Under the pieces are notes generated by a model. It made no database searches and had not been told where the DNA came from. It worked only from the letters and a program-made list of their open reading frames with translations. A DNA stretch of 41,587 bases. Source: Indolivaga alginatilytica (lineage in GTDB: Bacteria; Bacteroidota; Bacteroidia; Bacteroidales; Dysgonomonadaceae). A program made the position numbers and the translations under genes. Shown here in pieces: positions 212 through 38,409 of this stretch. The stretch's first letter is position 1. Every line of letters starts with the position of its first letter. The stretch covers positions 1 through 41,587 of the forward strand of contig NZ_QICL01000038.1 of the NCBI RefSeq assembly GCF_003201355.1, in the 5' to 3' direction.

Positions 212-226
212 AAGGTCTGAGACCTT
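212..226. repeat. dispersed palindrome, copy 1
   Basis: AAGGTCTGAGACCTT, a perfect 7+1+7 palindrome. It overlaps the htpG stop codon. The A-rich side (AGTAATAA) points away from htpG, so on the htpG strand the palindrome is followed by TTTTTATT. See the finding on this family. Confidence 0.8.
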
Positions 227-2126
227 ATTTACCTGTAATCAGTTCAGTACTGCGTTTGATGAAATTGCTCAGGCTCTCTCCTTTCAACATATTGTTTGAA
301 AGTAATGCCAAGTCAACCAATTGCTTGATAATAGGATTTTCTGATGCGTATTTGCTAACAGCTTCCACATCTTTACCATCCACATCAGTAATAATCTTTT
401 TTACCAATGGGTGATTGGTATTTATAACCATTGTAAAGTTGTCGGGCATTTCTCCGTAGAACGACATGCCTGTTTGCATAGCAGCCATTTCTTTCATACG
501 ACGAGTGTACTCGTTTTGTGTAATCTGAATTGGTTGAATGTTTTCGTTCAATGGTTTATAATCAAAAGAGAATTCTACTTTCTCTATCTTAGGTAATTGA
601 GATTTGAAAGTTTCATTCAACTCTTCTTTTTGCTTATCAGTTAAATCGGCATCAGCAATATCTTCTTTCTTGATCAGATTGTTAACAATATCACTATCAA
701 CACGAACAAAACGGCTCTTCTCGAATTTGCTTTCCAGCATTCCTGCTAAATGTACATCCAATTGCCCATCAAGTAAAAGAACATCGTAACCATGATCTTT
801 TGCTGCATTAATATATGAGTACTGTTCCTCTCTATTATTTGTATATAGGTATATTAAAGTACCTTCTTTGTCTGTTTGATTTCCTGAAATAAGAGTTTTA
901 TATTCTTCGAATGTGAAGATATTGCCATCTGTATTCTTTAATAAACAGAATTTTTGAGCACGATCGTAGAATTTCTCATCAGTAAGCATGCCATATTCGA
1001 TGAATATTTTAAGATCATCCCATTTTTCTTCGAACTGAGGACGGTCATTCTTGAATATATCCTCTAAACGATCAGCTACCTTTTTAGTAATGTGTGACGA
1101 AATTTTCTTCACATTGTGATCGCTTTGAAGATAAGATCTCGAAACATTCAGAGGAATGTCCGGAGAGTCGATAACCCCATGCATCAAGGTTAGGAATTCA
1201 GGAACGATACCTTCTACCGAATCAGTAATAAATACCTGATTAGAGTATAGCTGTATCTTGTTTTTATGAGGATCTACATTGCTCTTCAATTTAGGGAAAT
1301 AAAGTACTCCTGTCAATTTGAATGGATAATCTACATTAAGATGTATCCAGAACAAGGGTTCATCAGTAAAAGGGTACAAGTCCTGATAAAATTTCTTGTA
1401 ATCTTCGTCTTTTAAGTCTGCAGGCTTGCGGGTCCACAAAGGAGTTGTGTCATTAATGACATTATCTTCCTCAGTTTCTACCGATTTCCCATCCTTCCAT
1501 TCTGTTTTTTTGCCGAATACAATCGATACAGGTAAGAAACGACAATACTTTTTAAGCAACTTGTCTATTTCACCTTGTTCAAGGAAATTCTTATTTTCGT
1601 CGTCTATATATAATATAATGTCTGTACCTCTTTCGGTTTTGTCAGCTTTGCTTAAAGTAAACTCAGGAGTACCATCGCAGCTCCATTTTACAGCTTCAGA
1701 ACCCTCTTTATGAGAAAGAGTCACAATTTCAACTTGTTTAGAAACCATAAATGCTGAATAGAAACCTAGTCCGAAGTGTCCTATAATTGCATTGGCATCA
1801 TTTTTATACTTATCCAAAAATTCGTTGGCTGAAGACAGAGCAATCTGATTGATGTATTTATTGATCTCATCTTCTGTCATACCTATACCTCGGTCGGAGA
1901 TTGTAATAGTACCTTTTTCTTTGTCTAATGATACTCTTACTGCTGTGTCTCCCAATTCGCCTTTAAATTCACCTAAAGATGATAGGGTTTTAAGCTTTTG
2001 AGTAGCATCTACTGCGTTAGAAACTAGCTCTCTTAAAAAGATTTCGTGATCGCTGTACAGAAATTTCTTAATAATGGGGAATATATTGTCTGTGGTAACC
2101 CCAATATGACCTTTTCTTTCTTCCAT
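225..2126 (-). CDS. htpG: molecular chaperone HtpG (Hsp90)
   Basis: Cytosolic Hsp90 family ATP-dependent chaperone, which remodels client proteins as a homodimer. The N-terminal GHKL ATPase domain is clear: FLRELVSNAVDA near residue 27, the DRGIGM loop near 78 and GHFGLGFYSAFMV near 115. The middle domain carries NVSRSYLQSD near 330. At 633 residues it is shorter than the roughly 680-residue Bacteroides proteins I know; the charged insert near the C-terminus of those proteins appears to be absent. The start ATG gives MEERKGHIGVTTDNIF, the usual family beginning. It is monocistronic, with its own terminator downstream and a large gap to the divergent sigma-factor gene. Identification is firm. 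Confidence 0.97.
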   Translation of the reverse strand: MEERKGHIGVTTDNIFPIIKKFLYSDHEIFLRELVSNAVDATQKLKTLSSLGEFKGELGDTAVRVSLDKEKGTITISDRGIGMTEDEINKYINQIALSSANEFLDKYKNDANAIIGHFGLGFYSAFMVSKQVEIVTLSHKEGSEAVKWSCDGTPEFTLSKADKTERGTDIILYIDDENKNFLEQGEIDKLLKKYCRFLPVSIVFGKKTEWKDGKSVETEEDNVINDTTPLWTRKPADLKDEDYKKFYQDLYPFTDEPLFWIHLNVDYPFKLTGVLYFPKLKSNVDPHKNKIQLYSNQVFITDSVEGIVPEFLTLMHGVIDSPDIPLNVSRSYLQSDHNVKKISSHITKKVADRLEDIFKNDRPQFEEKWDDLKIFIEYGMLTDEKFYDRAQKFCLLKNTDGNIFTFEEYKTLISGNQTDKEGTLIYLYTNNREEQYSYINAAKDHGYDVLLLDGQLDVHLAGMLESKFEKSRFVRVDSDIVNNLIKKEDIADADLTDKQKEELNETFKSQLPKIEKVEFSFDYKPLNENIQPIQITQNEYTRRMKEMAAMQTGMSFYGEMPDNFTMVINTNHPLVKKIITDVDGKDVEAVSKYASENPIIKQLVDLALLSNNMLKGESLSNFIKRSTELITGK

Positions 2127-2198
2127 GATGTTATATTTTGTATTTTGTTATGATTCTCTGGAAGGTTAAACCAAAAAGGGTGCCATACTCGAAAAGAC

Positions 2199-2211
2199 TG
2201 TCATTTTGTCA
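2199..2211 (-). promoter_or_regulatory. direct repeat TGACA-AAA-TGACA upstream of htpG
   Basis: On the minus strand two TGACA pentamers separated by AAA lie about 75-85 bases upstream of the htpG start, followed 13 bases later by a related TGGCA. This may be a heat-shock promoter or operator. Only the repeat itself is seen; the role is inferred from its position. Confidence 0.3.
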
Positions 2212-2404
2212 AATGTTTATGATTAATTTCTATTCTTTAAATTTGTTGATAGATTAAGTTTATGCCTTATTTATGCATCTTTATCTTTATTGTGTCAGTG
2301 GTTATTTTGCTGTTATATAGGTGGTTGTGTTTTCATTATTCTTGTGCTTAACATTTGTTGAATGAAAAAAACTTTATTTTATTTTTAGAGATGCAAAAAG
2401 ATCG

Positions 2405-2412
2405 TATATTTG
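2405..2412 (+). promoter_or_regulatory. -7 promoter element of the ECF sigma gene
   Basis: TATATTTG matches the Bacteroidota sigma-ABfr -7 consensus TAnnTTTG. The -33 region is only T-rich (TTTTTA near 2382). It would give a leader of about 65-70 bases before the ATG at 2488. The rest of the 360-base gap from htpG shows no gene. Confidence 0.5.
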
Positions 2413-2487
2413 TGGTGTAGGATTATCCAAATATTTTATGTATAATATAACGGATTGTTCTTTCTTTAACACTAGAAACATAAGGTT

Positions 2488-3021
2488 ATGAAAAATGATG
2501 AAAACAACGCAAACGGCTTCGAAGGCAAACTAATTGCTCTTCAAAATAATATGATGAATTTTGCTTTGACTTTAACTACAAATAGAGAAGAAGCTAAGGA
2601 TTTACTGCAAGAAACAACTCTTCGTGCTTTAGATAATAAAGAAAAGTATTATGAAAACGTAAACTTCAAAGGATGGGTGTTTACAATTATGCACAACATT
2701 TTTGTAAATAACTATAGAAGAATCGTTCGCACGCAAACAGTTGTAGATCAAACGGAAAATCTATATCATCTTAATTTGCCGCAAGATTCGGGATTTGATA
2801 CCCCGGAAGGTGCATATACTATTGCAGAGATAACAAAATCAATTAATAGTTTCTCTGACGAATATAAAGTGCCGTTTACTATGCACGTTTCAGGTTATAA
2901 ATACGAAGAAATCGCTCAAACTCTGACTCTACCCATCGGAACAGTGAAAAGTCGTATCTTCTTTGCTCGAAAGAGATTACAGGAAATGTTGAAAGATTAT
3001 AAATTTCAAGACAGAGAATAA
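2488..3021 (+). CDS. RNA polymerase ECF-type sigma factor
   Basis: 177 residues, the usual ECF size. Region 2 is at residues 20-85 (the FALTLTTNREEAKDLLQET core, then FKGWVFTIMHNIFVNNYR). Region 4 is at 115-170, with helix-turn-helix residues YKYEEIAQTLTLPIGTVKSRI and the basic ARKRL end. It would direct RNA polymerase to alternative promoters. No anti-sigma gene lies next to it, and a strong terminator follows 50 bases after the stop, so it is probably a single-gene transcript. This matches the stand-alone RpoE-like sigma factors common in Bacteroidales. Its target genes cannot be told from the sequence. Confidence 0.93.
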   Translation: MKNDENNANGFEGKLIALQNNMMNFALTLTTNREEAKDLLQETTLRALDNKEKYYENVNFKGWVFTIMHNIFVNNYRRIVRTQTVVDQTENLYHLNLPQDSGFDTPEGAYTIAEITKSINSFSDEYKVPFTMHVSGYKYEEIAQTLTLPIGTVKSRIFFARKRLQEMLKDYKFQDRE

Positions 3022-3069
3022 GTAGTTACAGGTAATTAGTTACAAATTTGTCTATAAAAAAATAGAAGG

Positions 3070-3104
3070 AGAGTCACATGTGAGTAATCAGTGTGACTCT
3101 TTTT
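3070..3104 (+). terminator. rho-independent terminator after the sigma gene
   Basis: AGAGTCACA (3070-3078) and TGTGACTCT (3092-3100) form a perfect 9-bp stem with a 13-nt loop, followed by TTTT. It separates the sigma gene from the thioredoxin gene and also rules out a thioredoxin start at the GTG inside the stem (3093). Confidence 0.85.
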
Positions 3105-3131
3105 AATCAGTATAAATATCGGCTGAATCAA

Positions 3132-3518
3132 ATGAAAAAAAATATTGTATTGTCTCTCTTGTTAGTCTTTTCTTTAGCTGTAGTAGCTCAGGATAATCAG
3201 ACAGGAGAAAATAAAATCGTTACTCTTACTTCTAAATCGTATGAGCAAGAAACTTTGAAAGGGCTTGTTCTGGTTGATTATTGGGCGGTCTGGTGTGGTC
3301 CATGTCGAAAGATGGAGCCAATTTTAAAACAAATTGCAGCCGAGACGGATGTGAAGGTTGGTAAGTTGAATGTTGATGATTATAAAGCTGTGGCAAGAGC
3401 CAAAGATGTATCCACTATCCCTACAATGATTATTTACAAGGATGGTAAAGAGGTACAGCGATTGGTCGGAGTATATGCAAAGGATGAATTACTTAAGGTT
3501 TTGAATAATTATAAGTGA
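3132..3518 (+). CDS. secreted thioredoxin-fold protein
   Basis: Thiol-disulfide oxidoreductase of the thioredoxin family, probably periplasmic. From the ATG at 3132 the protein has 128 residues. An N-terminal signal peptide (MKKNIVLSLLLVFSLAVVAQ) is followed by a thioredoxin fold with the active site WCGPC at residues 54-58 and the cis-proline loop STIPTMII. A longer reading from GTG 3093 would begin inside the upstream terminator and put extra residues before the signal peptide, so it is rejected. The exact partner is unknown. No other redox gene lies beside it. Confidence 0.88.
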   Translation: MKKNIVLSLLLVFSLAVVAQDNQTGENKIVTLTSKSYEQETLKGLVLVDYWAVWCGPCRKMEPILKQIAAETDVKVGKLNVDDYKAVARAKDVSTIPTMIIYKDGKEVQRLVGVYAKDELLKVLNNYK

Positions 3519-3612
3519 AAATCGAATAAGGGATAGGTTGTATTTAATTAGTCTCTATAATTATGCTTGTTATTTCTCATTATTTAAAAGTATGTATTTG
3601 CTTTATTGCTAG

Positions 3613-3840
3613 ATCCATTACTGGTTTTGATTGACAACAATGAATAATTGAGAAGAAATTACATGCAGTGGATACTACCAATATGTATTTTTCAATATAG
3701 TTTTACTGTAGTTAGATAAAATAAAAAGAGTCATATCGAATATTCAGCCGTGTATTATACGACTGAATAGTTTCGATATTTTCGTTAAAATACTTTTTTG
3801 CAATTTTATTATGAATTGTAAAGAGTGTTATTCTATGGAG
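3613..3840 (-). ncRNA. candidate small RNA, unit 1
   Basis: Inferred minus-strand transcript starting below the TAACTTTA element (3842-3849) and running through hairpin 3733-3778 to a second hairpin at 3613-3673. The second hairpin and its loop resemble those of unit 2 (shared ATATTGGTA and TTGTTGTC blocks and ATCCA/TGGAT stem ends). No start codon and continuous frame spans it. The 3519-4548 interval holds no convincing protein gene. Existence as an RNA is a hypothesis. Confidence 0.25.
3733..3778. terminator. strong hairpin, possible terminator
   Basis: ATATCGAA-T-ATTCAG pairs with CTGAAT-AGT-TTCGATAT, giving 8 and 6 paired bases around a small bulge. T-rich sequence follows on both strands, so it could terminate in either direction. 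It is present only in unit 1 and accounts for most of the length difference from unit 2. Confidence 0.45.
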
Positions 3841-3841
3841 G

Positions 3842-3922
3842 TAAAGTTACACCTTAATTGACTTAAGGCATAGTTCGGGAAGTCCTATTTCTGCAAAAAA
3901 GAGTTATGATAGCCGCAAAAAA
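3842..3922 (-). promoter_or_regulatory. tandem operator plus promoter, unit 1
   Basis: Two GCAAAAAA repeats start at 3893 and 3915, exactly 22 bp (two helical turns) apart. On the minus strand they sit upstream of TAACTTTA (3842-3849) with 43 bases between. The arrangement is repeated almost exactly at 4379-4458. Likely a dimeric regulator site; the neighbouring TPR-AraC protein is the obvious candidate. Confidence 0.45.
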
Positions 3923-4197
3923 GAGTCTTATGTGGTGTGTTTGGTGATTTTTTTGCTTTTTCAGACTGCCGGCTTGTAAAGTTTTTTCTTGAAGGATTGT
4001 TTTTGTTTTCTGGAAAGTAGGCGTCTTTCCTTGGTCTTTCTGTTTATTAGTGATTGCTGTATGACCTATTTGAATTCATTTCTTAGCTGTAGTGGTTTAT
4101 GTAGGTCTGATTCTCTATAGAGGCGATCTGAGTTTTTATGTAAGGTGTGTATAGAAGATATTAAATATTAATTGTAATATTTGTAAGCTATTGGACA

Positions 4198-4375
4198 ATC
4201 CATTGCTTGCGTAGGTTATTTGACGACAACAAATAATAGAAAAAGAACGACAAGCAATGGATGTTACCAATATCTTTTTTGTAAGTGTTAGTTGGTTTTT
4301 GTGTGTTTTACATATATTTCTGTTGGTTGTTGAAATATTCACTTAGCATAATCTTATAATTGGTGCTAATTGATA
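4198..4375 (-). ncRNA. candidate small RNA, unit 2
   Basis: Inferred minus-strand transcript from the TAATTTTG element at 4379-4386 down to a hairpin with a perfect 12-bp stem (ATCCATTGCTTG 4198-4209 with CAAGCAATGGAT 4251-4262, 41-nt loop). A reading frame across it opens only with GTG and has no clear ribosome binding site, so a structured RNA or a very small peptide gene are both possible. Confidence 0.25.
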
Positions 4376-4378
4376 GTG

Positions 4379-4458
4379 CAAAATTAGTTTTTTACGGAAT
4401 GAGTCTAGCCTGTAGAAGTCTCATCTTCGCAAAAAGTAGTTCTGATTGCCGCAAAAAA
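4379..4458 (-). promoter_or_regulatory. tandem operator plus promoter, unit 2
   Basis: GCAAAAA (4429) and GCAAAAAA (4451) are 22 bp apart, and 42 bases separate the first from TAATTTTG (4379-4386), which matches TAnnTTTG on the minus strand. The layout and intervening bases (GACTTC in both) match unit 1. It lies about 90 bases beyond the stop of the TPR-AraC gene. Confidence 0.5.
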
Positions 4459-4548
4459 GCACTCATCTTGGCTTTTAGAGTCCAAAATGAGTAAATATGT
4501 TGAATGTGTAGATGCTTTACCTCTTATTAAGACCGGGAGTGAAACATA

Positions 4549-6282
4549 TTAGGAAGTCTTATCATTTTTTGCCATTTCTCGGACTTCATTGGGAGTTAAA
4601 TCATATTTTTGTTTGAAAAGACGATAGAAGGTACTCTTGTTCGAGAACCCGGCGAGCGTGTAAATTTTATCTATGGAAAGATTTATATCCTGACTGAGTA
4701 AACGTCGTGTATATTCCAAGCGAAAATCATTTATGTATTCCGTGAAGGTCATACCTTTGTTCTCTTGAATGGTCTGTGTGAGATATTGTCTGTTAGTGCC
4801 AAGTTCGAGAGCAAGAGTTTCACGTGTAAGATTCGGGTTTCTAAAACTCTCGCTTTTATATAAATGAGCTGCCGTTTTCTCGAAAAGAGAAGCTTCTTTC
4901 AGTTTCTCAGGATTAGAATCCTGTATCAGAGAGCTTAGGTTATGTATCTCATTCAGGTATTTATCCAAATCTTTGTGCTGGGTAAATATTTTTTTGTTCT
5001 TTTTCTTTAGTTTGTTCGAATTATACTTTATGGCGAATACTATAGCAAGGAGCAGAATACATACTGTAGTTAAAGATATTATTATAGTTCGTGTATTCTG
5101 TACCTCTAGTTCGTGCTTTTCTGCCTGATCCTTTAATTTTTCAACTTCATAAATTGTGCGTAATTCGTTAACTTGTCTGCTCGAATTGTCTTTAGCCATC
5201 GAATCAACAAATAAAAATACTTCATTCTTTAGGGTGAAGGCATTCTTGTAATCTCCTTTAGCAGCTAAAATATCGGCTTTTTTATCTCTTACAGTATTGT
5301 AGTTGAAATTATCTGATATTTCGGAATAATAATCTATTGCCTTATCTATATACTGCAGTGCCTGCTCGTAATTTTTAGTTTTCAAATAATATTCAGCATA
5401 GGCAATCTGTGTATAGTGATAGAATCTATCATGTATATAAGCCTTGTTCTCATTGTAATATATGGTAATATTTTCTATCATTTGCTTAGCTTCGGTTAGC
5501 CTGCCCAATTCGATCATGCTTTTGGCGGTGTTGACATCGGCTAGTAAAATGAAAAGGGTGTTATTCTTGTCTTCCGAATATCTATTTGCGTAATATCGGA
5601 TCGAATCACAATATGCCAGAGATAACTCGTGGTTGTTTGCATTGTATGCGGCAGTTGTTAGTTCCCAGAAAAAGGTCGGTCCGTCTTTTCCATAGTTGGG
5701 GACGTACTTTCTTTTTAAGTCTAACATCTTCTGGAAAGCCTCCAGTGCTTGCTTGGGTTTCTCCAGAAACAGATAGATGCGTCCTAGTAGTTCGTAGGAT
5801 AAGGATTCCCCTGATTTGTTATTGCTGTCTTGCGTATCTTGAAGTAACTTTAGGGTTTTATTCAGAGCGAGTTCCATATTTCCGGATTGAATATATGAAT
5901 CAATGATATAAGCATCAGCTCCGATTTCGTTTTCTATATCGCCTGCTCTCTGATAATATTCTTTAGCTTTCTGAGCCATATATATAAAGCTGTCTTTTAA
6001 TGCTATGTGTTGGTAATAGCCGCACAGGTGCATATATGCATGTCCCGTATACTGATTGTTTTTTTGTTTCAGGGCTTCTTCTTTTAGTATCATGGCATTT
6101 GCGAATGCCTCCGGCGTGTTGATAGTGGCGGTCGACATCTTTCGAAGAGATTTCAGCTTTTCTATCCCCGTTTCTTTAGATACTTCTTGTTGTGACTTGC
6201 TGTTCGTTGCAACAGATGCCTGAATAGATATAATAAGTAAAAAAATAAAAAGCACATGAGTTCTGATGAGGAATTTTTTCAT
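4549..6282 (-). CDS. TPR-repeat membrane-anchored AraC-family regulator
   Basis: 577 residues with three parts. A signal or anchor segment (residues 1-26) leads into a periplasmic helical region with TPR-like repeats (about 40-370, with ALNKTLKLLQD, ALEAFQKMLDL and ALQYIDKAIDYYSE units). A single membrane span (about 398-420) precedes a cytoplasmic AraC helix-turn-helix domain (about 475-570; LTRETLALELGTNRQYLTQ and the second helix pair ending FSNKSTFYRLFKQKYDLTPNEVR). Such one-protein sensors transmit a periplasmic signal straight to DNA in Bacteroidota. No target operon is adjacent, but two matching operator/promoter units lie just beyond its 3' end. The ligand is unknown. Confidence 0.88.
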   Translation of the reverse strand: MKKFLIRTHVLFIFLLIISIQASVATNSKSQQEVSKETGIEKLKSLRKMSTATINTPEAFANAMILKEEALKQKNNQYTGHAYMHLCGYYQHIALKDSFIYMAQKAKEYYQRAGDIENEIGADAYIIDSYIQSGNMELALNKTLKLLQDTQDSNNKSGESLSYELLGRIYLFLEKPKQALEAFQKMLDLKRKYVPNYGKDGPTFFWELTTAAYNANNHELSLAYCDSIRYYANRYSEDKNNTLFILLADVNTAKSMIELGRLTEAKQMIENITIYYNENKAYIHDRFYHYTQIAYAEYYLKTKNYEQALQYIDKAIDYYSEISDNFNYNTVRDKKADILAAKGDYKNAFTLKNEVFLFVDSMAKDNSSRQVNELRTIYEVEKLKDQAEKHELEVQNTRTIIISLTTVCILLLAIVFAIKYNSNKLKKKNKKIFTQHKDLDKYLNEIHNLSSLIQDSNPEKLKEASLFEKTAAHLYKSESFRNPNLTRETLALELGTNRQYLTQTIQENKGMTFTEYINDFRLEYTRRLLSQDINLSIDKIYTLAGFSNKSTFYRLFKQKYDLTPNEVREMAKNDKTS

Positions 6283-6449
6283 TTCTTCAGTAGGGTAGTT
6301 GGGTTTAATAAAAAAAAACTGATTTTTTAATGTATACAGCTAGAGTATAGTATTAAGCAAATTATGATCTTTGATTTATGTCTTTTTGGAGGTTGACTTA
6401 GATTCTGTTGCTGTTGTTTTTTTTTCTAAAAGAACCTGTCTTTGTTCGT

Positions 6450-6474
6450 GTTGCAAAAGTAGCACTTTTGTAAC
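6450..6474 (-). promoter_or_regulatory. palindrome overlapping the TPR-AraC promoter
   Basis: GTTGCAAAAGT-AGC-ACTTTTGTAAC is an inverted repeat (10 of 11 pairs). On the minus strand it contains TACTTTTG (6454-6461), a match to the TAnnTTTG -7 element, about 175 bases upstream of the TPR-AraC start. An operator overlapping the promoter would allow repression, for instance by itself or by the adjacent MarR protein. The binding protein is not shown. Confidence 0.4.
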
Positions 6475-6553
6475 GAATAAGTCTTTCGATAGTCTTCAAA
6501 AATTCCCGAAAATCCTCAAAAAATACTTGGGGGAGTTGTTAAATGTATTTGTT

Positions 6554-7018
6554 TTAGAGAGTCTCCTGAATATTATTGAATACGATTTTTAGCATAGAGC
6601 GCACTTGGTTGAGCCCGTCTTTGTCTATTCCTGCAAAAGCATATTGCATTGTCTCGTTGACAGCCTCATTGGCTTTCTCTTTGATACTTTTTCCTTTCTC
6701 TGTTAAGTATATTTGATTAGATCTGCGATCGGTCGGAGTTGATCGGCGTTCCGCTAATTCAAGCTTAGTCAGATTGTCTACCAATCGGGTCATGCTTGGC
6801 TTGTCTTTGAATGTTGCATCACAAAGCGTTTGTTGTGAAACACCATCCTGCCGCCATAAAAACGAAAGAACCGTCCACTGTTCGGGAGTTATATCCAGAC
6901 CATGTTTTCTGAAATTGCGGTACATCTTTCGATTAATAGCCATCGAAACTTTTCCATTGATTATAGGAAAGATATACTCTAGTTCTATTAAGTCGCTATT
7001 TTCGTTCTCGTGATCCAT
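6554..7018 (-). CDS. MarR-family transcriptional regulator
   Basis: 154 residues, typical MarR length. The winged helix-turn-helix occupies about residues 40-110: ITPEQWTVLSFLWRQDGVSQQTL, the recognition helix KPSMTRLVDNLTKLELAERR, then the wing with the DRRSNQIYLTEKG signature. Helices at both ends would form the dimer. It probably represses a nearby or unlinked operon in response to a small ligand. It is transcribed in the same direction as the TPR-AraC gene downstream (271-base gap). The promoter is at 7151-7181 and a dispersed palindrome lies in its leader. Confidence 0.92.
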   Translation of the reverse strand: MDHENENSDLIELEYIFPIINGKVSMAINRKMYRNFRKHGLDITPEQWTVLSFLWRQDGVSQQTLCDATFKDKPSMTRLVDNLTKLELAERRSTPTDRRSNQIYLTEKGKSIKEKANEAVNETMQYAFAGIDKDGLNQVRSMLKIVFNNIQETL

Positions 7019-7050
7019 CTTCTGACTTATTTCTCAATTAAATTACTTTT

Positions 7051-7079
7051 AAGGTTACAGACCTTTTTATTGCTTTGGC
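7051..7079. repeat. dispersed palindrome, copy 2
   Basis: AAGGTTACAGACCTT with the shared flank TTTTATTGCTTTGG. It lies 33 bases upstream of the MarR start, inside the predicted leader, with the A-rich flank (minus-strand sense) away from the gene. Confidence 0.75.
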
Positions 7080-7150
7080 AAATATAACAAACAGAGACTA
7101 TTGTGCTCACAAAGTGTAATAATTAATATTTTACATTACTTTGATGCCTG

Positions 7151-7181
7151 CAAAGGTATAATATCTTTAGCTTAGTTGAAA
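7151..7181 (-). promoter_or_regulatory. promoter of the MarR gene
   Basis: On the minus strand TACCTTTG (7151-7158) is a full TAnnTTTG match, preceded by TTTC after 19 bases (7178-7181), close to the TTTG -33 consensus. The leader would be about 130 bases. Confidence 0.55.
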
Positions 7182-7196
7182 TATTTAACTCCATAT

Positions 7197-7227
7197 TTTG
7201 TTTTTAGAGCATATTATCTTACCTTTG
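7197..7227 (+). promoter_or_regulatory. promoter of the rpsF-rpsR-rplI operon
   Basis: TTTG (7197-7200), 19 bases, then TACCTTTG (7220-7227): an exact Bacteroidota sigma-ABfr promoter. It is 47 bases upstream of the rpsF start. Confidence 0.85.
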
Positions 7228-7273
7228 CGGCTCGAAAAACTTTATTGTTTAACAAGTTTATATTAAATTATTT

Positions 7274-7621
7274 ATGAATCATTACGAAACCGTTTTCATT
7301 TTGACTCCCGTTTTGTCTGATGTTCAGATGAAGGAAGCGGTAGAAAAATTCAAAGGCATTCTGACTGACGAAGGTGCTACGATTGTTAGTGAGGAGAATT
7401 GGGGGCTAAAAAAATTAGCTTATCCTATTCAAAAGAAATCTACAGGATTTTACGCATTTGTTGAGTTTGATGCAGACCCATCGGTTATTGCTAAGTTGGA
7501 ACTACAATTTCGTCGTGACGAAAAAGTTATTCGTTTCTTAACTTTCCGTCAGGATAAGTATGCTCATCAGTACGCAGAAAAAAGAAGAAATCTTAGATCA
7601 TCAACTAAAAAAGAAAATTAA
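7274..7621 (+). CDS. rpsF: 30S ribosomal protein bS6
   Basis: 115 residues. The start [26 protein letters not shown], the central [23 protein letters not shown] and the basic tail are typical of bS6, which binds 16S rRNA beside bS18 on the small-subunit platform. First gene of a three-gene ribosomal operon in the standard bacterial order rpsF-rpsR-rplI; rpsR starts 2 bases after its stop, so the two are probably translationally coupled. Confidence 0.98.
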
Positions 7622-7623
7622 TC

Positions 7624-7890
7624 ATGGCACAACAATCAGAAATCAGATATTTGACTCCTCCTTCAGTTGATGTCAAAAAGAAGAAATACTGTCGTTTCAA
7701 AAAGAATGGTATCAAGTATATCGATTACAAGGATCCTGAATTCTTGAAAAAATTCTTAAACGAGCAAGGTAAAATTTTACCTCGTCGTATTACCGGAACA
7801 TCGTTGAAGTTTCAACGTCGTATAGCGCAAGCTGTTAAGAGATCTCGTCACTTGGCATTGCTTCCTTACGTAACCGATATGATGAAATAA
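7624..7890 (+). CDS. rpsR: 30S ribosomal protein bS18
   Basis: 88 residues. It contains the bS18 core: [23 protein letters not shown], then [28 protein letters not shown]. It forms the bS6-bS18 pair on the 30S platform, and its position directly after rpsF fits stoichiometric synthesis. A run of AAAAAAAGGAGGAAAAAG between it and rplI is an unusually strong Shine-Dalgarno stretch for this phylum. Confidence 0.98.
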
Positions 7891-7912
7891 TTAAAAAAAG
7901 GAGGAAAAAGAT

Positions 7913-8356
7913 ATGCAAGTTATATTGAAAGAAGACGTTGCCAATCTTGGTTACAAAGATGATGTAGTAACTGTAAAAGATGGTTACGGACGTAACTACC
8001 TTTTGCCACAAGGAAAAGCTGTAATGGCTACAGAATCTGCTAAGAAAATGTTGGCTGAAAACTTGAAACAACGTGCTCATAAGCTAGAGAAAATCAAACA
8101 AGACGCTCAGGAAATTGCTGCGAAACTTGAAGGTGTTACTCTGTCTATCGGTGCAAAAACAAGTTCTACAGGAACAATCTTCGGATCTGTTTCTAATATC
8201 CAAATCGCTGAAGCTTTGGAAAAGAAAGGTTTTGCTGTTGACCGTAAGGTTATCGTTATAAAAGAAGCAGTAAAAGAAGTTGGTTCTTATAAAGCTCTAC
8301 TTAAGCTTCACAAAGAAGTGTCTGTAGAAATTCCTTTCGAAGTAGTTTCTGAATAA
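7913..8356 (+). CDS. rplI: 50S ribosomal protein bL9
   Basis: 147 residues. The N-terminal bL9 domain is clear ([36 protein letters not shown]), followed by the long linker helix (residues 42-75) and the C-terminal domain containing [16 protein letters not shown]. It binds 23S rRNA at the base of the L1 stalk. Last gene of the rpsF operon; a strong terminator follows 22 bases after the stop. Confidence 0.98.
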
Positions 8357-8378
8357 GAAATTCCAGATATAATATAAG

Positions 8379-8412
8379 AAGAGGCTGCCTTTTATAGGGC
8401 AGCCTCTTTTGT
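8379..8412 (+). terminator. rho-independent terminator of the rpsF operon
   Basis: AAGAGGCTGCC (8379-8389) pairs perfectly with GGCAGCCTCTT (8398-8408) around an 8-base loop, followed by TT. The stem is flanked by A on the left and T on the right, so it may also end the convergent transcript from 9971-8432. Confidence 0.85.
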
Positions 8413-8431
8413 GTTATAATAAGATTTGAGT

Positions 8432-9208: not shown

Positions 9209-9215
9209 GTTCTTT

Positions 9216-9971: not shown

Positions 9972-10122
9972 TAAAATTAGTGTGATTTAAAGATGAAAAG
10001 CAGTAACATGTAATCTCTACACGCTACTGCCGGACATAGTTGTGCTATGAATAAATTTCTCATAACTGCTGATTTCGAACGACAACAAGAAAAAAAATCC
10101 GCTACACGAGTAAATTTATAAG

Positions 10123-10130
10123 CAAAACTA
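10123..10130 (-). promoter_or_regulatory. candidate -7 element of the paralog pair
   Basis: TAGTTTTG on the minus strand matches TAnnTTTG, about 150 bases before the first gene. No good -33 element is seen at the right spacing. Confidence 0.35.
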
Positions 10131-10251
10131 TAATTGTATTTATTAGGGAAATATTGTATATTTAAGTGCTTTCGGTTTTTGAGGAGCAGAAACAACAAAA
10201 GACGGAAAGTTCCGCCTAAGACATTTTTGTAATTAATATGTTTACTGGTTA

Positions 10252-10303
<52 letters not shown>

Positions 10304-10324
10304 ACATTTCAGTATAATTAGCCA

Positions 10325-10533: not shown

Positions 10534-10630
10534 TGATAACGAAAACATTTAAGGTTGTAGCCCTATTTGTTTTTTTTGTTAGAGGCAGATTTTTGTATCT
10601 GTGCGGAATAAAGTTTGTGAGAATAATAAT

Positions 10631-10645
10631 TGGGTCTGTGACCTT
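10631..10645. repeat. dispersed palindrome, copy 3
   Basis: TGGGTCTGTGACCTT, the most degenerate of the ten copies (AAGG changed to TGGG). It lies 17 bases before the tyrS start with AATAAT on the distal side. Confidence 0.55.
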
Positions 10646-10662
10646 AACAATAAATTAATTAG

Positions 10663-12029: not shown

Positions 12030-12100
12030 TGTCTCATGGTGTAATGGTAGCACTGCAGTTTTTGGTACTGCCTGTCTAGGTTCGAATCCTGGTGAGACAA
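12030..12100 (+). tRNA. tRNA-Gln (anticodon TTG)
   Basis: Acceptor TGTCTCA pairs with TGAGACA, and the T arm contains GGTTCGAATCC. The anticodon stem is GCAGT/ACTGC with loop TTTTGGT, giving TTG. No CCA is encoded. 71 bases including the discriminator A. Confidence 0.95.
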
Positions 12101-16630: not shown

Positions 16631-16645
16631 AAAGTCTCCGACTTT
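16631..16645. repeat. variant of the dispersed palindrome
   Basis: AAAGTC-TCC-GACTTT, a 6+3+6 palindrome upstream of the GH92 start. On the minus strand it reads AACAAAAGTCGGAGACTTTA, the same layout as the main family (A-rich side distal, GAGAC core), but with different arms. May be unrelated. Confidence 0.3.
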
Positions 16646-21671: not shown

Positions 21672-21740
21672 GATTAATTAATAGTAAGGTATAAATACAA
21701 TATCTCAATAATTAAATATAATTATCTCTTGTACTTATAC

Positions 21741-21770
21741 TTGCCAAAGTAACAAAAAGGTCTGAGACCT
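21741..21770. repeat. dispersed palindrome, copy 4
   Basis: TTGCCAAAGTAACAAAA flank then AAGGTCTGAGACCT. It sits between susD and the susE-like gene, 18 bases before the latter, with the flank distal to the downstream gene. Confidence 0.78.
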
Positions 21771-21788
21771 CAATAAAGAAAAAGCATT

Positions 21789-22915: not shown

Positions 22916-23084
22916 TATTTACTGACTATTTAATAACTAAATGTATTTAATGTCACATTCAAAAGTCATAACTAACAGTCGTTGTTATACATGGATTGAT
23001 ATGCGAATTTTGTTAAAAAAGAAGGAGTAAGTTTATTTGCTCCAACGATTATTTAACCTCAAGAACTGATTAAATAATAGCACC

Positions 23085-25871: not shown

Positions 25872-25953
25872 ATTGTTAGTTAGACACTATTACTCAATGT
25901 AAATCAGAGTTAAATAAGCTTTTTTTGTACTACGATTAACTCACAATAATAAA

Positions 25954-28092
<2,139 letters not shown>

Positions 28093-28163: not shown

Positions 28164-28320
28164 CTTAGTTTCAAGTCTGATTATAATGATCAAGAATATA
28201 TTAATTAACATTTATATAGAACGAAATAGTGTATTGATAATGCTTTTACTCTATTTATTTTGAGTGGAAAAAGTTATCTTTACTTCAAATATCATGATAA
28301 CTCTTTCTAATAATACGAAT

Positions 28321-30417: not shown

Positions 30418-30495
30418 AGCACTCAATTTAATCTACTTCCATTTTGTTCATGTTAGGGGGACTCAGGGGGAGATAGTGGTAAGGTAAGCTATTCA

Positions 30496-31074
30496 TCATA
30501 AACTCCATATGTTTGTTTGCTTGTGTGATCCATCTTCCCTGAATATTTTCTCCTCCAATCTCTCATTATTTATTATTCTTTGAAGATAAGTGCGGCTAAG
30601 ATAGTGATCAATGATTTTCTTTTCTATAATATCTTCTTCATCTAAGTATTTATAAAAACGGGTTTTATACAACTCCCCTTTTGAATCGTATTCATTCTCT
30701 TCCAATGTACGATTAAGTTGGTCTTTTTGTATAATTGAAATTTTATTTTGTAAATCACTTATTATTCCAGCTATATAATGAAAATCAGAACCCGATTGTA
30801 TCTGAGGTATTATTAAGTCATTAATAGTTGCCTTTTTTTCATCTGAATATTCAACAATAATGTTATAGTCCGAGTGACCTCCTTTATAATAATCTCTTGT
30901 TTTTTCTCTCTTTTCGATAAGACCAGTTTTATATATGCCCAAAGGAAATATAATTTTTATATGCTCTTTGTTTATTCCTTCAAAAGTGATCGTCAATTTA
31001 GGAGGTGTCAAATCTTGAGTGACTAAGTTATCTGAAATTCTTAAAAAACGATTGGAATTATATTCAATTGTCAT
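30496..31074 (-). CDS. hypothetical protein interrupting the GH97 array
   Basis: 192 residues, no signal peptide, no membrane segment, no known family recognised. The N-terminal half looks like beta strands (LTITFEGINKEHIKIIFPLGIYKTG), and the C-terminal half is charged helix (KTRFYKYLDEEDIIEKKIIDHYLSRTYLQRIINNERLEEKIF). It is on the strand opposite to the flanking glucosidases. With a transposase remnant just beyond its start, it looks like part of an inserted segment. Confidence 0.6.
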   Translation of the reverse strand: MTIEYNSNRFLRISDNLVTQDLTPPKLTITFEGINKEHIKIIFPLGIYKTGLIEKREKTRDYYKGGHSDYNIIVEYSDEKKATINDLIIPQIQSGSDFHYIAGIISDLQNKISIIQKDQLNRTLEENEYDSKGELYKTRFYKYLDEEDIIEKKIIDHYLSRTYLQRIINNERLEEKIFREDGSHKQTNIWSL

Positions 31075-31233
31075 ACCTAATTTGTTTAAATAATTTATAT
31101 TATTTTGTTTATGGTACTCACCATTGTTAGTACAGAGTTTATCTCTTTCTAACAGATTTTTTTATTTAAGTAATTCAAAAATACTCAATATTTTGATTTA
31201 TTTCATGATTCTGGATGTTTAATATCAGTTTTT

Positions 31234-31368
31234 TTATGCCATCTGTTTTTTATGCTGCTGTTCAAGTGTTTTGTGATTTAAACTTTGATATAAGCGATTG
31301 TAATTGTAGAACTGTAAGTATTGATTGGATTGGTTAAGCCCAAAGTTCAGATACTGTTTGGTAAAACC
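31234..31368 (-). pseudogene. remnant of an IS3-type transposase (C-terminal end)
   Basis: On the minus strand 44 codons up to a stop read LNQSNQYLQFYNYNRLYQSLNHKTLEQQH, the pattern of the integrase-core C-terminus of IS3-family transposases (FYN..R.HQSL.YKTP). A +/-1 frame to the right continues with coding-like sequence (DKTLWVNYDKRNRQKNEEGHW), so frameshifts have broken the gene. No intact ends were found. The rest of 31075-31629 holds operators and the next gene's leader. Confidence 0.6.
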
Positions 31369-31436
31369 CAATGCCCCTCCTCATTTTTTTGTCTGTTTCT
31401 CTTATCGTAGTTCACCCATAGGGTTTTATCGATCTT

Positions 31437-31460
31437 TGCATACGTTTGCAAACGTTTGCA
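31437..31460. promoter_or_regulatory. two overlapping LacI-type operators upstream of GH97 copy 3
   Basis: TGCATACGTTTGCA (31437-31450, one mismatch) overlaps the perfect TGCAAACGTTTGCA (31447-31460). They are offset by 10 bp, so they face the same side of the helix. They lie 170 bases before the third GH97 gene. Confidence 0.72.
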
Positions 31461-31588
31461 GCCAAGTATTACCTTTTTGTATTTGCTTTATGTTAATATG
31501 ACAAGGTAATATCTTTTCTTTGTATATAAGAAATAGAGAGGGTTTTTTGACTATTGTAAATTGTAATAATACTTATAAAATTAGTAAA

Positions 31589-31603
31589 AAGGTCTTAGAC
31601 CTT
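31589..31603. repeat. dispersed palindrome, copy 6
   Basis: AAGGTCTTAGACCTT, perfect apart from the central base, preceded by TTAGTAAA, 26 bases before the GH97 copy 3 start. Confidence 0.8.
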
Positions 31604-31626
31604 AATCTTAAAATGAAAAGATATAA

Positions 31627-33819
<2,193 letters not shown>

Positions 33820-33841
33820 GAAAAAGATAGATTTAAATATA

Positions 33842-33879
33842 AATATCCCCGAATAGGTAATGTCCTGTTCGGGGATATT
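33842..33879. terminator. bidirectional terminator between GH97 copy 3 and the MFS gene
   Basis: AATATCCCCGAA (33842-33853) pairs perfectly with TTCGGGGATATT (33868-33879), a 12-bp stem. The two genes converge here. Confidence 0.85.
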
Positions 33880-33916
33880 CTTTGTGTGTAAATGAATTGT
33901 TAGTTTATTGAGGGGC

Positions 33917-35239
33917 TTATCTGGAAGTCTTTTTCACCGGATCATTTATAAATATCACCGATACAGCTCCTATAAGAAGTGAAACTCCCGAAACAAGGAA
34001 CATGGCAAAAGGTCTGCTCCCTGCAACATTTTCGAAAAGGAAGTGTCCTAACAATCCCCCTGCTATCTGAGGAATTACAATAGTAATATTGAGAAGTCCC
34101 ATATACAATCCCATTTTATTGGAAGGTACTACATTTGCCAGTATCGAAAAAGGCATAGTTAATATCATAGCCCAAGCAATACCAATGAGGAACATTGGTA
34201 ATAAAAGTAAATATTGATCGTGAATAAAGAACATTGAGAGCATTCCTATACCTCCTAATACAAGAGAGAATGAATAGAAATTCTTTCTTCCGAACTTATC
34301 TGTAATTCTGGGTAGGAAAATAGAGAAAATAGCAGCTATAACGCTGTATACACCTGTTAAGATACCAAACCAATTTCCTGCATGATTATACTCTACCGAA
34401 TGAGGGTCGCTTGTGTTCCATACAGTAACAGCAATTCCATCGGTGGCATATACCCATATGTAATAGAATGCAAACCATGAGAATAGTTGTACAATAGACA
34501 ATTGAAGTATGGTGATTATTGTTTTCTTGTTGTCGGTAGATGTTGCGTTTTCTTCTTTGTTGGCAGATTCGCTTCTGTTGTATTCTTCAAACAATTGGGG
34601 TGGATATTCTTTTACACTGAAACATGTCCATAAATTGGTAAGTACAAGAAATCCTATGCCAATATAAAAGGAGACCGAAACGGAGTCGGCTACCCGACCT
34701 TCGTCCGCTTGATTGCTAAAACCGATGTAGGCAAGCAGAAAGGGTAGGCATGAACCTACAATAGCACCGAGATTAGAAACAATAGTCTGTACGGAATATC
34801 CCTGATTACTTTGTTTGCTGTTGACCATATCCCCAACTAACGATCGGTAAGGTTGCATGCTTACATTAAATGCGCTTTGCATGAGGAATAAAATGCTTAC
34901 TCCGGCCAGTACGGGAGGCATAATACGTGATACGATGTACGAATTGGGCATGAGGAACATCATAATAGCCGAAACTACAAGCCCTATCAGTATATAAGGT
35001 ATTCTTCGTCCCAGTCGAGTCCATGTTCTGTCGCTGAAGTAGCCGATGAGAGGTTGCATAAATAACCCGGCTAAGGGGGCGGCAAGCCATAAGAAAGCCA
35101 ATTCGTTGGTATCTGCACCTAATGCTGATAATATACGGCTTGTGTTTGTCATTACAAGCGTAAAACAAATTTGTGTACCTAAAAAGCCGAAGTTTATATT
35201 CCAGATTTGCCCGTATCTGAGCGTAGGTTTATTTAGCAT
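33917..35239 (-). CDS. MFS sugar transporter (maltose/sucrose type)
   Basis: 440 residues, about 12 membrane segments. The N-terminal pattern (LRYGQIWNINFGFLGTQICFTLVMTNTSRILSALGAD, then PLIGYFSDRTWTRLGRRIPYI) is that of SLC45/GPH-like sucrose-maltose carriers found in Bacteroidota glycan loci. The cytoplasmic loop motif GYFSDRTWTRLGRR and its second-half counterpart ITDKFGRKNFY are present. It should bring maltose or glucose across the inner membrane after periplasmic GH97 action. Transcribed towards the GH97 array, it starts 138 bases after the lacI gene on the same strand and might share its transcript. Confidence 0.86.
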   Translation of the reverse strand: MLNKPTLRYGQIWNINFGFLGTQICFTLVMTNTSRILSALGADTNELAFLWLAAPLAGLFMQPLIGYFSDRTWTRLGRRIPYILIGLVVSAIMMFLMPNSYIVSRIMPPVLAGVSILFLMQSAFNVSMQPYRSLVGDMVNSKQSNQGYSVQTIVSNLGAIVGSCLPFLLAYIGFSNQADEGRVADSVSVSFYIGIGFLVLTNLWTCFSVKEYPPQLFEEYNRSESANKEENATSTDNKKTIITILQLSIVQLFSWFAFYYIWVYATDGIAVTVWNTSDPHSVEYNHAGNWFGILTGVYSVIAAIFSIFLPRITDKFGRKNFYSFSLVLGGIGMLSMFFIHDQYLLLLPMFLIGIAWAMILTMPFSILANVVPSNKMGLYMGLLNITIVIPQIAGGLLGHFLFENVAGSRPFAMFLVSGVSLLIGAVSVIFINDPVKKTSR

Positions 35240-35266
35240 AAGGTCTTATATTTCTGTTCAGGTATT

Positions 35267-35297
35267 AAGGTCTCAGACCTTTTCTATTCCTTTGGCA
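35267..35297. repeat. dispersed palindrome, copy 7
   Basis: AAGGTCTCAGACCTT, then TTCTATTCCTTTGGCAAG. On the gene strand (minus) the flank CCAAAGGAATAG precedes the palindrome, 27 bases before the MFS start. A half copy (AAGGTCTTAT) touches the start codon at 35240. Confidence 0.8.
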
Positions 35298-35376
35298 AGT
35301 GTTACAACCAGAGGTTGTTATAGTGATTAAAAATATCACCAATTATTTTAAATTATTTAGAGCTATGCAGACTACT

Positions 35377-36399
35377 CTATTTTACCAGAGGTCGTGTGGT
35401 TTCTCTTATAACTAAACTGGTTTTCACTATTTTATTTTTCTTATCCGTACTATCGGGATTTTGTACCTTCTCTAAAATCAGATTCATAGCCTCTTCTCCT
35501 ACTTTTTGAGGATGCTGATCTACGGTTGTAAGCATAGGATCGGTATCCTGAGAAATATTAGAGTTGGAGAAACCGCATATAGAGACTTCTTCGGGAACTT
35601 TAAGTTTTAATGTTTTTGCAGCTAGCAAAATTCCGGAGGCTGTGTAATCATTCATTGCCATAAAAGCATCAGGTCGGTTGTCCGATTGTAACAGTTCCAT
35701 AGCTTTTTCGTAGCCGAGCTGTTTATTATCCGCAATTCTTATAATATCTTCATCTATGGGCATGTGATGTTTTCTTAATGCATCCAGGTAGCCATTTTTT
35801 CTATTCTTGGATATCTCGAGATGAGGAGCAGCACCAAAGAATGCAATATGTTTGCATCCCGTTTGGATCATATAATCAACGGCATGAAATGTACCCGAAT
35901 AATCATCAACTACAACTTTACCGGAGTCTATTCCTGTGCAAATGCGGTCGAAGAAAACCACTGGTATATTATTATCAACCAGTTCTTGAAAATGATCGTA
36001 TTTTATTGTTGTTTTTGATTGAGATATAAGCATTCCGCATACACGAGCTTCTATCAACGTCTGAACATTGCGTATTTCTTTTGTATACTCTTCCGACGAT
36101 TGGCAAACAATTACATGATAGTCATGATCTTCGGCAATCGTTTCCATTCCCGATAATACAGATGAGAAGAAATGATTGGCAAGTTCGGGGACTATTACTC
36201 CTATAATATTGGAGTGACTGTTTCTAAGGCTCAAAGCCAAGGAGTTGGGCTTATATTTATGTTCGTTTGCATATTCTTGTACCACTCTCCGAGTTTCGAG
36301 GCTGATATCGGGATTGTTGTTTAGAGCTCTGGATACAGTCGATGCAGAAATATTCAGATTCTTGGCAATATCTTTAATCGTTATACGTCCTTTTTTCAT
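35377..36399 (-). CDS. LacI-family transcriptional regulator
   Basis: 340 residues. The N-terminal LacI helix-turn-helix (ITIKDIAKNLNISASTVSRALNNNPDIS, residues 6-33) and hinge helix (PNSLALSLRNSHSNIIGVIVP, about 52-72) are complete. A periplasmic-binding-like sugar domain follows (HFFSSVLSGMETIAEDHDYHVIVCQS, VVFFDRI, PDAFMAMNDYTASGILLAAK). The palindrome TGCAAACGTTTGCA upstream of susC and two of the GH97 genes is a normal site for this family, so this is the likely local regulator. No SusR-type regulator is in the window. Confidence 0.93.
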   Translation of the reverse strand: MKKGRITIKDIAKNLNISASTVSRALNNNPDISLETRRVVQEYANEHKYKPNSLALSLRNSHSNIIGVIVPELANHFFSSVLSGMETIAEDHDYHVIVCQSSEEYTKEIRNVQTLIEARVCGMLISQSKTTIKYDHFQELVDNNIPVVFFDRICTGIDSGKVVVDDYSGTFHAVDYMIQTGCKHIAFFGAAPHLEISKNRKNGYLDALRKHHMPIDEDIIRIADNKQLGYEKAMELLQSDNRPDAFMAMNDYTASGILLAAKTLKLKVPEEVSICGFSNSNISQDTDPMLTTVDQHPQKVGEEAMNLILEKVQNPDSTDKKNKIVKTSLVIRETTRPLVK

Positions 36400-36638
36400 T
36401 GTTTAGAAATAATTAACTATTGTAACGTTTTTATTACCATATTGTTTAGCCTTATTTGTTTTGTTTATGACACTTGCAAAATAATAAAGTCAATTGATGA
36501 TTCATAAGAATCATTATGTAAGGAATAAAAGTAATCAAAAAATCAGCTTAGAGTAACTATTTCTTTCAGATATTAAGTAATGTGAAACATTTATTGCCAT
36601 GTTTTATAATTATAACTGTCTCTGGTTATCACTTTTAC

Positions 36639-36665
36639 CAAAGCAATAAAAAGGTCTTAGATCTT
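36639..36665. repeat. dispersed palindrome, copy 8
   Basis: CCAAAGCAATAA flank, then AAGGTCTTAGATCTT (one mismatch in the right arm). It lies 43 bases beyond the rluF stop, with the flank distal. The rest of the 308-base gap 36400-36707 shows no gene. Confidence 0.78.
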
Positions 36666-36707
36666 ATTTTCTTAGAATCACTTTAAAATACTGTTTTTAT
36701 ATGAAGG

Positions 36708-37739
36708 CTATTTCTTCGTTCCTTTGCGAGCTTCTCTTTCCTTACTTTTAGGCTCAGATTTGGTTTTGGCTTTAGTCTTTGGTTTATTCGCAGCCATTTT
36801 TTGTTTTCCCACCCTCAATCCACTCGAAGGTTTGCCTTTACTTCTGGGTTTTGGTTTATCTTCTCCATTTTCAGAAGTTAGCGTAAATTTCTTTGGCTGA
36901 TCTTTGTCTGTTTTGTTTGCAGTAGCTTTTTTTGCAGCCAGACTTCCTTTTCTATAATTGGTTCTTATATCATGCTCTTCAAGAGCTCTGTTAAAAGACT
37001 TGTTGCTGTTGGATGGCGTTTTTCCTGCGGGAGTTTTCTCAGAAGCTTCAAGCATGTCGAATAATCCTTCCATTTCCGAAGCAGTCAGGTTACGCCAGTT
37101 TCCCTGCCCTAACTTATCCAGTTTGATATTCATTATCTGAATACGCTCCAGTTTGAGTACATCATAATTAAAATATTCACACATACGTCTGATTTGTCTG
37201 TTAAGACCTTGTATAAGTGAGATTTTGAATGTATAAGGGTTGATCTTTTCTATCTCGCATCTGCGTGTCACTCTGTCTAAGATAGGTACACCTTGCGACA
37301 TACGAGTGATGAAGTCAGACGTGATCGGGCGATTAACAGTGACAATGTAATCTTTCTTGTGATTATTTCCTGCACGCAATATCTTATTAACGATGTCTCC
37401 GTCGTTTGTCAGGAGGATTAATCCTTGCGAATCCTTATCCAACCTACCGATAGGAAATATACGTTGTTCGTGTCTTATAAATTCGATGATATTGTCTCTC
37501 TCCAACGGATTGGTAGAACTTACAACTCCAACAGGTTTGTTGAATGCAATATATACAGGCTCTACTTTATTCTCAATCAATTCTCCGTTCACCTTCACTT
37601 TCTGTCCCGGTAATACACGAGATCCGATAGTAGCTTTTTTACCATTTACTGTAACATTACCACTTTCTATATATTTGTCAGCTTCGCGTCTGGAGCAGAA
37701 GCCCGATGCACTGATGTATTTATTTAAACGATATTCCAT
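36708..37739 (-). CDS. rluF: 23S rRNA pseudouridine synthase RluF-type
   Basis: 343 residues from the ATG at 37739 ([24 protein letters not shown]); a longer reading from GTG 37787 would start inside a repeat element. The S4 domain (residues 3-60) is followed by the RsuA/RluB/E/F catalytic domain with [10 protein letters not shown], whose aspartate is the catalytic residue, then [26 protein letters not shown] and [13 protein letters not shown], nearly identical to E. coli RluF (U2604 of 23S rRNA). The last 110 residues are a lysine-rich low-complexity tail, presumably for rRNA contact. Flanked on both sides by inverted copies of the dispersed palindrome. Confidence 0.9.
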
Positions 37740-37779
37740 TTTCTCTAAATCTAAAAGTAAGAACAAAAATAAGTATACT

Positions 37780-37807
37780 AAGGTCACAGACCTTTTTATT
37801 GCTTTTG
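37780..37807. repeat. dispersed palindrome, copy 9
   Basis: AAGGTCACAGACCTT, then TTTATTGCTTTTG. It is upstream of rluF in inverted orientation to copy 8. A degenerate further copy (AAAGGTTTGAGAGCT, about 37829-37843) lies 21 bases away in the opposite orientation. Confidence 0.78.
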
Positions 37808-37994
37808 TATGTGCAATAATGATAAAAAAAAGGTTTGAGAGCTAGCCAGATATCAATCTTCAATATTCTTTATTTCAGTACTCTCTATCTTTTTTTGAAA
37901 ATGAAAGAATATAGAAGTTTATCAAGATGAAAAACACCCGTTCTTAATATAATTAAAGACGGATGTTCTGGTTTATTCGTTTATCTTAATCTAG

Positions 37995-38081
37995 CGGAGA
38001 AGAAGGGATTCGAACCCCCGATACAGTTGCCCGTATACTTGCTTTCCAAGCAAGCGCCATCGTCCACTCGGCCACCTCTCC
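37995..38081 (-). tRNA. tRNA-Ser (anticodon GGA)
   Basis: 87 bases with the long variable arm of class II tRNAs. Acceptor GGAGAGG pairs with CTTCTCC, with discriminator G. The anticodon arm CTTGC-TTGGAAA-GCAAG gives GGA, and the T arm has GGTTCGAATCC. No CCA is encoded. Confidence 0.95.
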
Positions 38082-38151
38082 TTAATTACGGCACAAAGAT
38101 AAAAATATTTCTTGTATATAAGTAATGTAAAACGTTTATTGCTTTATTTTA

Positions 38152-38346
38152 GAGTCTGGTTAAATTTAACCGAACTGTTTTTCTTGTAAAATGCTGCCAT
38201 TGTTCTTTGCTACTTTTTTAAGCTCTTTTGAGCATCTTTTTCACTTACTCCTCTTGATTCAGCCCGCTGAATCTACTAGTAATAAGTGTAAAATCTATCT
38301 CAAAATAAGTCTTAAAAAAAGAAAGCAATAAAATTTAAACAGACTC
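38152..38346. mobile_element. 195-bp MITE related to the IS at 41409
   Basis: Terminal inverted repeats start GAGTCTGGTTAAATTT on the left and GAGTCTGTTTAAATTT on the right, flanked by direct repeats TTA (38149-38151 and 38347-38349). The right terminus is identical over 20 bases to the end of the IS at 41409. The inside has no reading frame but has two hairpins (GCTCTTTTGAGC at 38222; GATTCAGC-CC-GCTGAATC at 38256-38273). It is probably moved by that IS's transposase. Confidence 0.8.
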
Positions 38347-38380
38347 TTAAAAGTTATAACCAGCTATTTCAGTTGTGCTT

Positions 38381-38409
38381 ACCAAAGCAATAAAAAGGTT
38401 TGAGACCTT
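38381..38409. repeat. dispersed palindrome, copy 10
   Basis: ACCAAAGCAATAAA flank, then AAGGTTTGAGACCTT. It lies 12 bases beyond the tatD stop. On the tatD strand it reads as a 6-bp hairpin followed by TTTTTATTGC. Confidence 0.78.

Follow-up and report, generated by a model that had tools for sequence, protein, structure and literature searches.

Repetitive extragenic palindromic (REP) sequences, the class that goes with TnpA-REP tyrosine transposases, are short dispersed extragenic palindromes. Small repeats can also carry the end of a gene: the part of the Streptococcus pneumoniae survey drawn on here counts 36 genes that have their extreme 3' end, stop codon included, inside a BOX copy, with no strong evidence of truncation (PMC3049150), and a miniature inverted-repeat transposable element (MITE) at the 3' end of a gene is reported in the relevant section of PMC5896051. 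Here we describe a repeat family from Indolivaga alginatilytica (Dysgonomonadaceae), starting from a stretch of 41,587 nucleotides (the window) that forms contig 38 of a 5.12-Mb assembly and in which an earlier note had listed ten dispersed palindromes with a conserved flank. These palindromes form the left end of a dispersed, non-coding element of about 93 bp, TAAGGTCTnAGACCTTTTTATTGCTTTGG…TTACTTA, whose left end often coincides with the native stop codon of a gene. We regard it as a new family within a known class, the small mobile interspersed repeats; what is unusual is the one-sided association with stop codons. Literature searches of open-licence papers for the motif, for Dysgonomonas palindromes and for Bacteroidetes or Dysgonomonas repeats showed no description of this element among the results listed.

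All ten palindromes are present in the window, but only four match AAGGTCTnAGACCTT exactly (212, 25954, 31589 and 35267); four have one mismatch (21757, 36651, 37780 and 38395), that at 7051 has two and that at 10631 three. Two degenerate forms mentioned in the same note, near 16631 and 37829, are also present, with three mismatches each, at 16631 and 37830. Altogether the window holds 14 matches at up to three mismatches, compared with a mean of 2.1 and a maximum of 6 in 100 shuffles. The abundance extends to the whole assembly, where 163 exact palindromes were found and none when the pattern was read backwards. Similarly, 400 kb of the genome contained 20 exact and 27 one-mismatch palindromes, while five rearranged control palindromes together gave no exact and a single one-mismatch match.

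The full element became visible when copies were aligned in the outward orientation (46 near-full copies in one alignment, 41 in another), and the conserved flank proved to be part of it. At E<1e-3 a profile matched 131 times in 842 kb here and 90 times in 800 kb of a relative from the same genus (G004), with none in the reversed sequence; stretches containing N (1335 in this genome and 1295 in G004) were set aside. The element has the ends TAAG…CTTA, with TA at both extremities and terminal inverted repeats of 4–5 bp, and its palindrome is more conserved than its tail. An initial impression of three covarying internal hairpins was not supported, since compensatory change is clear at a single pair of the left palindrome (13 symmetric double changes, 1.4 expected) and the other five pairs show 1–3 each. 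At E<=1 the window has 11 matches to Rfam 15, all of them outside the copies. In some copies a TGTAGGGGC-type palindromic repeat replaces or interrupts the middle, directly after TTTATTGCTTTGG (contig 1 of this genome near 252825, 254828, 521246 and 555062; contig 2 near 41925). The motif TAGGGGC occurs 57 times in the 842 kb, a raw count with no chance expectation.

We then compared gaps between genes whose neighbours are reciprocal best matches and adjacent both here and in G004. Among 140 such gaps the element was present only here in 26, only in G004 in 13, in both in 8 and in neither in 93; a larger G004 sample of 142 gaps gave 23, 13, 8 and 98, respectively. Gap lengths differed in step with the presence of the element at many of the sites compared. 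The added relative sequence thus changed little; with a second relative, G001, the gaps numbered 3 and 6. The presence and absence of the element at orthologous gaps therefore indicates that it moves. Another repeat lies nested within the copy after tatD, which we also count in favour of a mobile element.

The target can be read from the flanks. At 104 copies away from stop codons, a T preceded the TA in 65% and an A followed it in 51%, against intergenic TA backgrounds of 36 and 37%, so that the insertion site resembles TTAA. For copies at stop codons, removal of the element together with one TA left TAA in 27 of 35, which is better evidence for a TA duplication than the comparison with empty sites described below.

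The coincidence with stop codons was examined in 200 copies from three genomes, with genes called by a custom codon-usage script and with copies having the end in question facing a gene's end as denominators. Of 86 left ends, 34 had a TAA that was exactly the stop codon of the gene they face; the same was true of 9 of 74 right ends (Fisher p=1.4e-4). Two other genera, with 29 copies between them, gave 12 of 17 and 0 of 4, respectively. These stops do not arise by truncation: an orthologue was available for 23 of the 46 genes with an element at the stop, and in 22 of these 23 pairs (one gene pair being counted from both sides) the two proteins ended within three residues of each other, compared with 84% of 543 controls. 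The stops are therefore native.

Part of the coincidence follows from short gaps. We placed copies at TA sites of reconstructed gaps, modelling orientation, start-codon clearance and the TTAA preference. For 180 copies this null predicted 13.4 left ends and 13.0 right ends at stops; 32 and 13 were observed. The TTAA weights were drawn from the same copies, and without them the right-end expectation is 9.0. By gap length, left ends at stops numbered 14 against 10.4 expected below 40 bases, 7 against 1.9 at 40–119 and 11 against 1.2 at 120 or more, that is, 18 against 3.1 in all gaps of at least 40 bases; the right ends gave 8 against 8.4, 4 against 2.9 and 1 against 1.7. A cruder null, now superseded, had given 26 observed against 11.9 expected here and 13 against 5.8 in G004.

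We consider it likely that a single account joins these observations, namely a non-autonomous, MITE-like element of about 93 bp that inserts at TA, with a preference for TTAA, and is tolerated at stop codons. The TA would probably be duplicated on insertion, and mobilisation would presumably occur in trans, by a separate transposase. Since the element begins with TAAG and ends with CTTA, a TAA stop that received it at its TA would be rebuilt and the protein left unaltered. The places that tolerate insertion in a compact genome would then be stop codons and the few free bases just ahead of start codons. The element would in this way fill hundreds of sites (an extrapolation from 842 kb), in part by way of stops, with proteins unaltered.

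Several observations weigh against this account. The terminal inverted repeats are unusually short for it, and no IS630-type (DDE_3, PF13358) gene was found in the six genomes of the genus. Pairs of left and right ends 200–4000 bases apart in 2.44 Mb of the three genomes yielded no recognised autonomous partner, most pairs not having been inspected singly, and no PF01797 match was found in the copy-rich G004 and G005 (at least 67 copies each by covariance model). At only six of 27 one-sided sites did the empty site rise above the 95th percentile set by unrelated gaps; TA stood at three of the six, TAA at one, and two had no T. Direct evidence for TA duplication is thus modest, because the non-coding flanks have diverged. 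Moreover, four loci from named Dysgonomonas (85 kb), whose TyrS proteins are 82–85% identical to that of the window, contained no palindrome at up to two mismatches and no profile match. Within Dysgonomonas as named, the family is therefore unevenly distributed. Finally, TA insertion alone does not account for the excess of left ends at stops in the longer gaps. For accepted MITEs the autonomous partner is often unknown.

An alternative for that excess is that insertion is directed to native stops in one orientation, the palindrome end replacing the stop by way of the stop codon itself, beyond any TA or TTAA preference, and that gene ends serve the element as safe harbours. We hold this to be unlikely, though not far-fetched. 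The share of copies at stops is steady across copy score, a proxy for age, and hairpin pairing and T content are alike after stop codons and in other contexts. Together these argue against slow retention of copies as terminators and leave either targeting or immediate selection. Recurring as it does in two other genera, the one-sided excess makes the choice between targeting and selection testable.

The earlier note had also suggested that the palindrome might stop transcription leaving the gene. On sequence grounds a terminator role is possible: the hairpin AAGGTC-tna-GACCTT (6-bp stem, -5.5 kcal/mol, a stability matched by 9 of 200 shuffles) is followed by T-rich DNA, and four of seven palindromes between 21600 and 41587 are terminator-like by prediction. 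A portable intrinsic terminator, with hairpin and T tract kept by selection after stops to end the transcript, would also fit the left-end preference for exact stops in all the genera concerned. However, the positions of copies are unsupportive. In tandem gaps the two orientations stand at 36:23 here and 25:25 in G004, and convergent gaps, with 4 and 8 copies, respectively, are not enriched per base. In the 0–60 bases past a stop there are fewer left ends than right, and before starts the two arrangements are about equally common, with 126 right end first and 114 left end first. With the uniform hairpins and the similar share at stops among young and old copies, this makes selection as a terminator improbable as the origin of the pattern.

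The rule proposed in the earlier note, by which the A-rich flank faces away from the neighbouring gene in every case, fails for the element as a whole. Where both ends of a copy were defined, the nearer end was that with the palindrome for 46 of 81 copies here and for 41 of 81 in G004. The apparent rule is mostly geometry, because the palindrome is one end of a 93-bp element lying between genes. Separately, the two ends differ in their distance from start codons in the 2.44 Mb: leaving aside six overlaps with called genes, the left end always stands 9 bases or more away, whereas 16 copies have the right end at 1–8 bases. This would fit an intolerance of hairpins close to the ribosome site.

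A third reading, that the palindrome is the site of a DNA-binding protein (an operator or a nucleoid-type site) and the tail incidental, appears highly improbable. It could draw on the better conservation of the palindrome, on the pair with 13 symmetric changes, and on palindromes at up to one mismatch that have no recognisable tail (41 of 98 here, 43 of 70 in G004). However, this solo count is biased by the choice of intact palindromes, the other five pairs covary little, and in 17 gaps with palindromes in both genomes the palindromes at shared sites are often altered too. The neighbouring genes in the window share no common pathway, as the earlier note had already remarked in arguing against a simple operon regulator, and a pathway regulator is unlikely. 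The case cautions against taking such palindromes for operators.

The suggestion of a REP-like element was right in kind, the element being short, dispersed, extragenic and palindromic, but movement by a TnpA-REP tyrosine transposase is scarcely credible: the sole PF01797 gene of this genome has no element copy within its 3.2-kb locus, G004 and G005 are rich in copies with no such gene, and the consensus lacks the GTAG tag of REP sequences. The PF01797 gene itself (locus L105, contig 1 of this genome, about 534.5–537.7 kb) stands among repeated small open reading frames (ORFs) starting MKTDLYTK, beside a TTGGGATTTGCAATCCCAA-type palindrome.

The MITE-like family is abundant in the Dysgonomonadaceae. 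Exact palindromes occurred in 9 of 61 genomes: besides the 163 of this one, there were 100 in G004, 64 in G001, 55 in G005 and 22 in G003, all of the same genus, and 1–4 in each of four genomes outside it, one of which also had one control match. A covariance model, applied to no more than 67 scored candidates per genome, found at least 67 copies in each of four genomes of the genus, this one included, and at least 65 in a fifth; the remaining one, G002 (62% complete), gave neither an exact palindrome nor a covariance-model match. In other genera of the family the model found 20 copies in G019, 10 in G023, 5 in G010, 2 in G029 and 1 in G017, with 26, 10, 5 and 3 in the first four at a looser threshold. 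No match was found among 24 genomes of other families.

Copies in the window are listed in the table below. The list of the earlier note was incomplete, having missed the tail-only copy after the SusE gene, and its site before tyrS, although present, is only a weak match to the profile. Most of its gene names (MarR, tyrS, SusE, two GH97, MFS, TatD and HSP90, or HtpG) agree with Pfam; its rluF is a protein with S4 and pseudouridine-synthase domains.

Table. Copies and remnants of the element in the window, with the part of the 93-position profile matched.
Feature	Position	Strand	Profile match
Left-end remnant; its TAA (225-227) serves htpG (HSP90), ORF 225-2126, as stop codon	202-227	-	1-26 of 93, E=4e-5
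Full-length copy upstream of MarR gene, left end towards gene start	7050-7142	+	1-92, E=3e-17
Doubtful palindrome before tyrS	10624-10646	-	1-23, E=0.22; 3 mismatches
Left two thirds of copy, upstream of SusE gene	21713-21772	-	3-60, E=1e-12
Tail-only copy after SusE gene	22933-22990	-	33-90, E=2e-5
Left-end remnant upstream of first GH97 gene	25946-25969	-	2-24, E=6e-4
Left-end remnant upstream of second GH97 gene	31569-31604	-	1-36, E=0.003
Full-length copy between MFS gene and next ORF	35266-35359	+	1-92, E=1e-17
Full-length copy after S4/pseudouridine-synthase gene	36574-36666	-	1-93, E=1e-18
Left half of copy, upstream of S4/pseudouridine-synthase gene	37779-37823	+	1-45, E=5e-8
Copy after tatD, split by a second repeat of ~200 bp (about 38147-38349)	38119-38410	-	left 1-68, E=9e-14; right 57-93, E=0.6; ends paired at 292 bases

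The paired ends of the tatD copy raised the possibility of an autonomous parent, but the interval is a nested insertion instead. The inserted sequence is a second MITE-like repeat, with ends GAGnCTGTTTAAATTT…, that is also found on contig 1 of this genome near 363103; its end motif, with up to one change allowed, was counted 12 times in 842 kb of this genome, twice in 1.2 Mb of G004 and once in 0.4 Mb of G001. Rfam also marks tRNA genes in the window at 12030-12100 (+) and 37995-38081 (-), the second near two element copies.

The nearest precedents appear to be the pneumococcal BOX, RUP and SPRITE repeats, to judge from the portions of the two sources used here. Compared by description, BOX repeats are likewise small, interspersed and intergenic, with stop codons inside copies, but they are modular and enriched in convergent gaps, whereas our element of about 93 bp shows no such enrichment and one of its ends prefers stops (PMC3049150). 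RUP, of about 107 bp, has TA-containing targets and is thought to be mobilised in trans; its ends, however, match IS630-Spn1, whereas no PF13358 gene was found in the six genomes of the genus (PMC3049150, PMC2229807). SPRITE resembles our element in having a hairpin and a T-rich tract, in lying near gene 3' ends and in having no matching insertion sequence, but its stem is 18 bp long instead of 6, and it shows a strong enrichment in convergent gaps that our element lacks (PMC3049150). Compared with REP sequences, our element is longer and TA-ended, and G004 and G005 have no matching TnpA-REP gene. Finally, TA-ended MITEs of the Correia/NEMIS type are, as set out in the section of PMC2229807 used, similarly short, A+T-rich, non-coding and present in many copies with TA at their ends, but usually have longer terminal inverted repeats than the 4–5 bp seen here.

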